From: Thermoplasma acidophilum DSM 1728
GTDB taxonomy: Archaea > Thermoplasmatota > Thermoplasmata > Thermoplasmatales > Thermoplasmataceae
Assembly: GCF_000195915.1 (NCBI RefSeq)
Contig: NC_002578.1
Coordinates: forward strand, 124,001-188,000
Direction: 5' to 3'
Length of the DNA: 64,000 nucleotides
The notes below the pieces were generated by a model. It was not told the origin of the DNA. It did no database searches and was given only the letters and a program-made list of their open reading frames with translations. Shown piece by piece: positions 27,266 through 54,040 of this stretch; position 1 is the first letter of the stretch, and each line of letters begins with the position of its first letter. The position numbers and the translations under genes were made by a program.

Positions 27266-27362
27266 AAGTATACCAAAGTAGGTGATGACTTCCGATCTGA
27301 TAATGATTCCTGCGTAAAAAGATGGATCAAAAGAAATTTTTCAGAAAACCGTCACCGATTAT

Positions 27363-50453: not shown

Positions 50454-50583
50454 AAACACTTTTCTCAAATTTTTATTAATATATTTTATATACAACGGCG
50501 CTTGTTGTGGAAATTTCGATTAGCGATGGTCTGTGTTTTCGGATCCCGATCAAATTTTTTATAAGTGCTGATGATACTACGCA

Positions 50584-51878
50584 GTGGTGTTCTTCCGCCT
50601 GTTGATCGCAGCTGCAGTTTTTGCCTTTACACTCATCCTTGTGATCATCAGGCCATGGAGACTGGATATAGGCTATTCCGCGATCATAGGCGCCATAATA
50701 TCGATAGCTCTTGGCTCTCAACACCTGTTGACATAATCAAGGTCTGGGGCATAATCTGGAATCCCACCTTCACCTTCGTTGCCATAATAATAATGTCCCT
50801 TGTTTTCGATTATTCCGGTTTTTTCGAGTACTACGCCATAAGGATATCGAAGATGGCTGGCGGAAACGGCCTGAAGCTCTTCGTCTTCATAGTGCTGCTT
50901 GGATCGGCCATATCGGCCTTCTTTGCAAATGACGGCACTGCACTGGTTCTTACGCCAATAGTATCGGCCATAACCGCTAGGACCGGCATGGACAAAAGGC
51001 GGGCACTTGCTTTCGTCATGGCAACAGGTTTTATAGCTGATTCCTCCAGCCTGCCCTTCATAATAAGCAACCTCGTCAACATAATAGGGGCAGGGTACTT
51101 TGGCGTATCATTTGCACAGTACGCGGAAACCATGATCGTTCCAGACATAGTCAGCATAATGGCCAGCCTTGGCGTACTGATCCTCATCTACAGGAAGGAA
51201 GCATCGGTTGAATACAGCACAGAGGATGTGGGCGATGAGAACAGGGTCATAGTGGACAGCCGAATATTCAGGCTGGCTTTGCCATTCATAGCCATCGTTG
51301 TACTTGCTTACTTCCTCTCCAGCCTGGACAGCATACCGGTGAGCTTCATTGCACTTCCAGCCGCATTGACCGTGCTCTACATTGCAAGGGTCAATGGCAA
51401 GATAAATACAGGCCTTGTTCTTAGAGAGGCGCCATGGCAGATCGTCCTCTTCTCGCTGGGTATGTACGTGGTAGTTTACGGTTTTGGAAATGCCGGCCTC
51501 ACTGATCTCATAACCGATCTTATGCGTTCACTGATGTCGCTGGGAAATCCGGCGTATACTCTTCTGGGCGGGTTGTTTTTTGGCTTTCTTGCCGGGGCTA
51601 TGAACAATCTGCCGTCCACGATGATGGGCGTCCTCACGGTATCCAGTCTCAGTGGTAACAGGTTCCTGCTTTATGCAAACGTAATAGGAAATGACATAGG
51701 CCCGAAGTTCACGCCGATAGGTTCTCTGGCAACTCTCCTGTGGATGTACACGCTCAGGCGGAAGCATGGAATAGAGGTAACGCCGCTCTATTACATGAAG
51801 ATAGGCTTCATCGCAGCGCTCCCAGTTCTGGTTGTGACGCTCCTTTCACTTTATGCGGTGGTATCCCTAGGCCTTTAA
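50584..51878 (+). CDS. arsB: ArsB/NhaD-type anion or arsenite transporter with an internal frameshift
   Basis: Two frames together make one transporter. From GTG 50584 (or 50587) frame A reads F-F-R-L-L-I-A-A-A-V-F then R-P-W-R-L-D-I-G-Y-S-A-I-I-G-A-I-I-S-I-A-L-G-S, the expected N-terminus, and stops at TAA 50734. The other frame, shifted by -1, continues with T-P-V-D-I-I-K-V-W-G-I-I-W-N-P-T-F-T-F (from about 50715) to 51878. Later A-F-F-A-N-D-G-T-A-L-V-L-T-P and M-N-N-L-P-S-T are family motifs. TATA tttttataa (50556-50564) is 24-27 nt before the start. Either a true mutation or a sequencing error; no slippery site was seen. Confidence 0.75.
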
Positions 51879-51913: not shown

Positions 51914-52873
51914 TCAGAATGAGGATGGCGCAGGATTGTCGGCCAGCTGTATCGGGAATGATGGAATGCTGACGGTGGTATTGTACACTTCATCAATGAG
52001 CCACTGGACTGCGTACACTGATCTGAAGGCCGGCTGGTTGAAGTAGTTATCATCGAATATTGTGAAATAGGTGCCATTCTTGTAAGCATTTGTCTGATCG
52101 AATGGATCTGTTTTCATCACAGATGAGTTGACGTACTGATCCAGCAGTATTATATCCGGCGAATCGTTGAGTATCACCGATCCAGGTACCGTATAATATC
52201 CAGTTTCGTTTGCTATGTTGCGCAGATCCGCTATGTTGAAGAAATCGTTTATGAACGTCTGATTGCCGGCAGTCCAGTAACCGCCCTCAGTGCTGAGCAG
52301 GTAGAAGATGCTCATCCTCTTTCCATCGGAAAGCCTCGTGGCGTTCTGGTGAAGGTAAGTCAGCGATGTCTGCATCCAGTGCACTATCTCAGTTGCGTTG
52401 TTCTGCGTTCCAGTTATATTTCCTAGCTCGAGGATCTGCTGCTCTATCTGCGTAAAGTTATCCTGTCCAACCTCTATTACAGGTATCCCCATATCCAGTA
52501 TTTTCGTTATGACGTTCTGCGGATAGTATGAAGGTATTGTTATGACCGCCTGCGGAGAGACGTTCAGCAGCTCTTCATAGTTGACCGTATCCAGCTCACC
52601 GACAATTGGAACGCTCAGATTTTTTGGATAGGTGGTGTAGGTGCTGATGCCAACCAGATCCTTTTCAGCGCCAAGTGCGTAAAGGTTAACCGTTATGCTT
52701 GGCAGCAGCGAAACTATCCTTGTGAGCGGATGGGTGAATGGAAGCTTTGCATTTGGTGCGTATACCTGGGCTACGTCATTTGTGCCTATGCCCTCCTTAT
52801 AGTAGAAGTATGATACACCTGCCACGACCACCACTATTATTATGGCTATGGCCAGAACCGAGTTTCTGTTCAT
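51914..52873 (-). CDS. ABC transporter substrate-binding protein, cobalamin/siderophore (BtuF) type
   Basis: 319 aa. An N-terminal hydrophobic helix (I-A-I-I-I-V-V-V-V-A-G-V) anchors it outside the membrane. R-I-V-S-L-L-P-S-I-T-V-N-L-Y-A-L-G and L-V-G-I-S-T-Y-T are the conserved opening of TroA/BtuF-like proteins, and the rest fits a two-lobe helical-backbone binding protein. ATG 52873 has GGTGA 10 nt upstream and a TATA-like box near 52913-52923, so it is preferred over ATG 52909. It is divergent from the permease gene; no lipobox Cys. Ligand (B12 or Fe-siderophore) undetermined. Confidence 0.85.
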   Translation of the reverse strand: MNRNSVLAIAIIIVVVVAGVSYFYYKEGIGTNDVAQVYAPNAKLPFTHPLTRIVSLLPSITVNLYALGAEKDLVGISTYTTYPKNLSVPIVGELDTVNYEELLNVSPQAVITIPSYYPQNVITKILDMGIPVIEVGQDNFTQIEQQILELGNITGTQNNATEIVHWMQTSLTYLHQNATRLSDGKRMSIFYLLSTEGGYWTAGNQTFINDFFNIADLRNIANETGYYTVPGSVILNDSPDIILLDQYVNSSVMKTDPFDQTNAYKNGTYFTIFDDNYFNQPAFRSVYAVQWLIDEVYNTTVSIPSFPIQLADNPAPSSF

Positions 52874-52981
52874 GGATTTCACCAAATTAATTTTAGTTTC
52901 CGTAAACATACTTCAATATATTAAGATGGCGATCTTTATTATGGTGAAATGGATTTAAGTAACATAAAGGGGGATTAATTG

Positions 52982-54040
52982 GTGTTCTCTGATATAAGGT
53001 ACCACGGTAAGGCCCTGAGGGTCCCAGTCGCAGTGTCTAGCATTGTCCTCCTTATACTGGTATCAATCGTATCTCTGGGCATAGGCAGCATATCAATATC
53101 CATCAGGCGAACAGGCGAGATAATATGGGATCAGATTCCGTTTCTATCATCAATACACCATTTTGCGGTTCCGGAAAGTGATTATCTTATCATAACGGAA
53201 TTGAGAGAGCCGCAGATCGTTGGAGCGATAATAGTGGGTTCCACCCTTGCAGTTGGTGGATCCGTCGTGCAGAGCATATTCAGGAATCCGATAACCGAAC
53301 CATACATAATAGGCATATCCAGTGGCGCAGCGCTGGGTGCTGTGCTGAGCATAGCTCTTTCGCTTTCATTTCTTGGATATTACACTCTTGAGATCAACGC
53401 ATTCCTCTTCAGCACAATTACGGTTGCGATCGTTTACCTCATATCCTACAGGCATGGAAGGGCCCCACCAACATTTCTTCTCCTGATAGGCATATCGCTC
53501 TCATTTTTCTCATCATCCATAGTTTCCTTCATAATATTCTCAGACGTTAACCTTGCAGGCAGCGAGTATTTCTGGCTTCTCGGTTCTATAGAAACCATAA
53601 GCTGGTCGGAGATCATTGCGCTCATACCAATAGTCCTGTTCTCCTCTATCGGCATATACCTGCTCAGAAACGAACTTGACGCACTCCAGATGGGTGATGA
53701 GCATGCACACTCAATCGGTGTCAACGTTGAGAGAACCAGGGCAATACTTATAGCCCTGGTTACGCTCAGCACTTCCGCCGTGGTATCCGTTTCAGGCCTG
53801 ATAGGGTTTGTCGGCCTCATCATGCCTCACGTGTCAAGGCTCGTCTATGGTGGATCGAACAGATATGTGATACCTACATCCGCGGTATTCGGTTCGATTT
53901 TCCTCATGGCAGCGAACGACATATCGAAGGTAATAATTCATGGCGAGGTCATACCGATAGGCATAGTCACCGGAATAATCGGCGTCCCGGTTTTCATCTA
54001 CCTGCTTGGAAAGATGGCAAAGGGTTCCTATGTCCAGTGA
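52982..54040 (+). CDS. ABC transporter permease, FecCD/BtuC family
   Basis: About 352 aa with ten membrane segments. L-R-E-P-Q-I-V-G-A-I-I-V-G-S-T-L-A-V-G-G after the second, I-F-R-N-P-I-T-E-P-Y-I-I-G-I-S-S-G-A and G-L-I-G-F-V-G-L-I-M-P-H are family landmarks; the last is the ATPase-docking loop. GTG 52982 is 25 nt below TATA atttaagta (52953-52961), preferred over TTG 52979. No ATPase gene is nearby, so the energising subunit must be elsewhere in the genome. Confidence 0.9.
   Translation: MFSDIRYHGKALRVPVAVSSIVLLILVSIVSLGIGSISISIRRTGEIIWDQIPFLSSIHHFAVPESDYLIITELREPQIVGAIIVGSTLAVGGSVVQSIFRNPITEPYIIGISSGAALGAVLSIALSLSFLGYYTLEINAFLFSTITVAIVYLISYRHGRAPPTFLLLIGISLSFFSSSIVSFIIFSDVNLAGSEYFWLLGSIETISWSEIIALIPIVLFSSIGIYLLRNELDALQMGDEHAHSIGVNVERTRAILIALVTLSTSAVVSVSGLIGFVGLIMPHVSRLVYGGSNRYVIPTSAVFGSIFLMAANDISKVIIHGEVIPIGIVTGIIGVPVFIYLLGKMAKGSYVQ

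Follow-up and report, generated by a model that had tools for sequence, protein, structure and literature searches.

The window, a 64,000-nucleotide stretch of DNA, carries what is by its sequence an ordinary arsB gene, predicted to start at GTG 50584 and split into two reading frames by one absent base. On the same basis, the start called from position 50565 is wrong and would give the putative ArsB protein a false N-terminus. The gene model is corrected to an arsB that begins at GTG 50584 and carries a frame break. More broadly, conserved genes in the genome record show scattered one-base losses, with no fewer than two among the roughly 223 kb compared, and such losses matter whenever pseudogenes or recoding are inferred from this record.

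One ArsB protein in two frames

The gene lies on the forward strand. Frame A (50584-50736) opens at GTG 50584, ends at TAA 50734-50736 and encodes 50 residues, including the ArsB N-terminus and the first membrane segment. Its homology to ArsB stops at codon 44 (50713-50715), and frame B (50715-51878) supplies the other 387 ArsB residues plus the stop. The two frames overlap from 50565 to 50736, and the junction between them is at 50715-50716. A mechanical ORF call merges frame B with its own upstream reading: the resulting 437-residue ORF starts at GTG 50565, ends at 51878 and is open throughout. Its upstream portion (50565-50714) is without homology and non-hydrophobic, with a best 19-residue Kyte-Doolittle mean of 0.91 against 2.74 in frame A; the roughly 50 residues preceding the join match nothing. 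The initial annotation had placed the start codon, the TAA and the ORF from 50565 at exactly these coordinates.

Family models divide along the same line. Frame A matches NCBIfam NF011980 at model positions 3-43 (E 5.2e-10), while the 50565 ORF matches positions 44-427 from ORF residue 54 onwards (E 3.6e-145). The frames are thus adjoining, non-overlapping tiles of one ArsB, and a full-length match to the model is reached only across both. In the deposited sequence, frame A therefore encodes the first membrane segment, but in a different frame from the rest of the protein. Pfam PF02040 (ArsB) likewise matches the 50565 ORF only from residue 56 (E 5.3e-97), and the PDB 10tp chain named "Arsenical pump membrane protein" gives a match with E 2.3e-93. 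Frame B alone clears the NF011980 cut-off (484.3 vs 457), and the split ORF falls below that of TIGR00935 (403.9 vs 415). Two congener ORFs match NF011980 without interruption, one at positions 3-427 and the other at 3-428; both score above its cut-off and, at 449, above that of TIGR00935. A profile of the N-terminal region, derived from 108 of the 110 ORFs described below and so including sequences tested with it, recognizes frame A at E 3e-18 and the 50565 ORF at E 8.2. These matches bear out two earlier proposals, that the correct ArsB start lies in the first frame and that roughly 50 N-terminal residues of the usual call are false.

Upstream sequence is consistent with the same start. A TATA-like box at about 50556-50564, which we take to be an archaeal TATA element, stands some 20-25 bases before GTG 50584, in keeping with the promoter noted previously. 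Its spacing to GTG 50584 is the same in the aligned congeners G001, G002 and G003 and is less conserved in G004. If the gene is leaderless, as we assume, the transcript would begin at or near GTG 50584. GTG 50565 abuts the box and would fall outside the transcript, because the start site would lie downstream of both the box and this codon.

The ORF list shows a divergent pair downstream of arsB, at 51914-54040, which presumably encodes the binding protein and the permease of an ABC transporter for a metal or vitamin. By eye, no additional ars-type gene is recognized in the ORF list between 47000 and 56000.

Comparison with relatives and constraint on the two halves

DNA alignment with five congener loci, which represent four genomes (L031 and G002 are one contig), shows exactly one base absent directly after GGC 50713-50715. 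There is no second indel from the junction to 50900, and the sequence is colinear on both sides. Searches by tblastn with the G001 and G003 ORFs put the junction at the identical place. The -1 frame change that had been proposed near 50715 is thus located to the base, and the combination of a one-base absence with two tiling frames is far beyond chance.

A whole-genome search finds a single ArsB copy in this genome and ArsB matches in 32 of 41 genomes, the organism's own genome counted; a scan of the collection adds 80 further loci. The first segment is in frame in 107 of the relatives' 110 match-frame ORFs (E<1e-3). The three exceptions are the window copy itself (L001), a masked copy (L017) and a broken fragment (L025). 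No ORF among the 110 begins at frame B and genuinely lacks the first segment; an orthologue of that kind would have spoken against a split gene. The fragment L025 belongs to G010, a genome given as 50% complete, in which ArsB is in pieces in different frames and is split again downstream. Internal TAG codons suspected in the ArsB relatives G014, G009 and G005 are natural terminal stops that the alignment had run past.

Substitution rates were compared on either side of the join. Over the 387 codons of frame B, dN is 0.085 between the window and G002 and 0.079 between G002 and G001; over the 41 frame A codons before the join, the values are 0.140 and 0.133. Both halves are under normal codon constraint, without acceleration, and frame B contains no further stop or indel in its 387 codons. 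This pattern suggests that any decay of arsB is recent, or that the gene is intact after all. The pS over frame B is about 0.72, which places dS near saturation between relatives, so decay that began recently would go undetected.

Other frame breaks in the genome record

A background scan set 464 kb of the genome, made up of the window and the adjoining 400 kb, against stretches from four congeners totalling 1.26 Mb. Within the 464 kb, ORFs of the relatives cover 223,234 unique bases, of which 44,668 are inside the window. Two one-base losses are confirmed in these 223,234 coding bases: the one in arsB and another in a gene outside the window at C1:212736-213344 (L204), which we regard from sequence resemblance as ETF-beta (etfB)-like. 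The latter has lost one base at about C1:213344; its open frame encodes 224 residues here, against 261 in all four congeners, and an adjoining ORF follows directly. Neither break lies at a long homopolymer. Breaks of a single base therefore occur in these records at a low rate and are scattered.

Further candidates in this genome dissolved on inspection. Those at window positions 27352 and 56713 are no gene breaks but readings, antisense or intergenic, across two adjacent genes, and those at own-stretch positions 410925 and 171255 are indels upstream of the gene's start codon. The reverse scan, for breaks in the relatives, returned six hits. One, in G003:L165, is a run of N, and those at own-stretch 50565 and 410436 repeat places already named; other hits pair own-stretch 113917 with G004:L203 and 280739 with G002:L158 (a contig edge). 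In G004, which we take to be T. volcanium, a presumed acyl-CoA dehydrogenase-like gene (L201:11746-12755, so named by resemblance) is split over two frames. Its counterpart here, at own-stretch 190195-191208, is continuous, and the G004 break looks real.

Cause of the missing base and comparison with known systems

The initial annotation had left the cause open; the comparison points to a one-base loss rather than recoding. We lean, with modest confidence, towards an error of base calling or assembly in the deposited sequence; the organism would then possess the base that its record lacks. The true gene would in that event run uninterrupted for about 430 codons from GTG 50584, and its product is predicted to work as a normal ArsB. 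A record error is favoured because one base is absent against four congeners, in the only ArsB copy and with no sign of decay, and because the ETF-beta-like gene has likewise lost one base. Long homopolymers are the usual site for some kinds of slip, and their absence at both breaks counts against this reading. The present data also fit a genuine recent deletion in the sequenced strain, which predicts the same pattern. Such a deletion would truncate ArsB after 50 residues and leave arsB a fresh pseudogene, neutral in laboratory culture without arsenic. A recent mutation would equally be expected to combine a one-base loss with unaccelerated constraint on both sides, and the comparable break in the G004 gene means that a congener's record has such breaks too. 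However, the gene is the genome's sole ArsB, the second conserved gene has the same sort of loss, and the 387 downstream codons have gathered neither stops nor indels; a true deletion is possible but the less probable account.

Readings in which the deposited sequence is both correct and functional fare much worse. Programmed or tolerated -1 ribosomal frameshifting, by which the sequence, taken as deposited, would yield a complete protein, would explain the constraint on both frames and has room for a shift in their overlap, yet no X XXY YYZ heptamer is visible when frame A (50584-50736) is read by eye, as had been noted before for the junction. Nor is there a stable downstream fold, at least among nested structures: the 101 bases from 50700 to 50800 fold at -16.6 kcal/mol against a shuffle mean of -18.1 kcal/mol (z +0.49), and 136 of 200 shuffles are at least as stable. 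A shift at the junction occurs in none of the four congener genomes, and the ETF-beta-like break has no visible shared motif, which together make frameshifting very unlikely. More improbable still is an undescribed -1 frame correction that needs no classical slippery site and would also rescue the ETF-beta-like gene. Equally hard to credit is a true gene confined to frame B, beginning at GTG 50565 or further in, for example at ATG 50655, and having no first helix. The ORF is indeed open from 50565, and frame B by itself exceeds the NF011980 cut-off; but the extra N-terminus is foreign to the ArsB profile, nearly all relatives keep the first segment in frame, and GTG 50565 probably precedes the transcript. 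Such a protein would also lose one membrane segment and have its topology inverted.

The frame break is named in no title or abstract opening found by a search that lay mostly outside the subscription literature, and the passages seen of PMC10354927 and PMC2963123 make no mention of it.

Programmed -1 ribosomal frameshifting is known from dnaX and IS elements. The present locus resembles such genes in having two overlapping frames with a -1 step between them, and differs in lacking a slippery heptamer, a stimulatory structure and conservation in relatives. The closer likeness is to ArsB arsenite/antimonite efflux permeases, a predicted function to which the PF02040, NF011980 and PDB 10tp matches point. 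Frame A provides the first segment that frame B is without; the difference from other ArsB genes is that this one is divided between two frames through one absent base.
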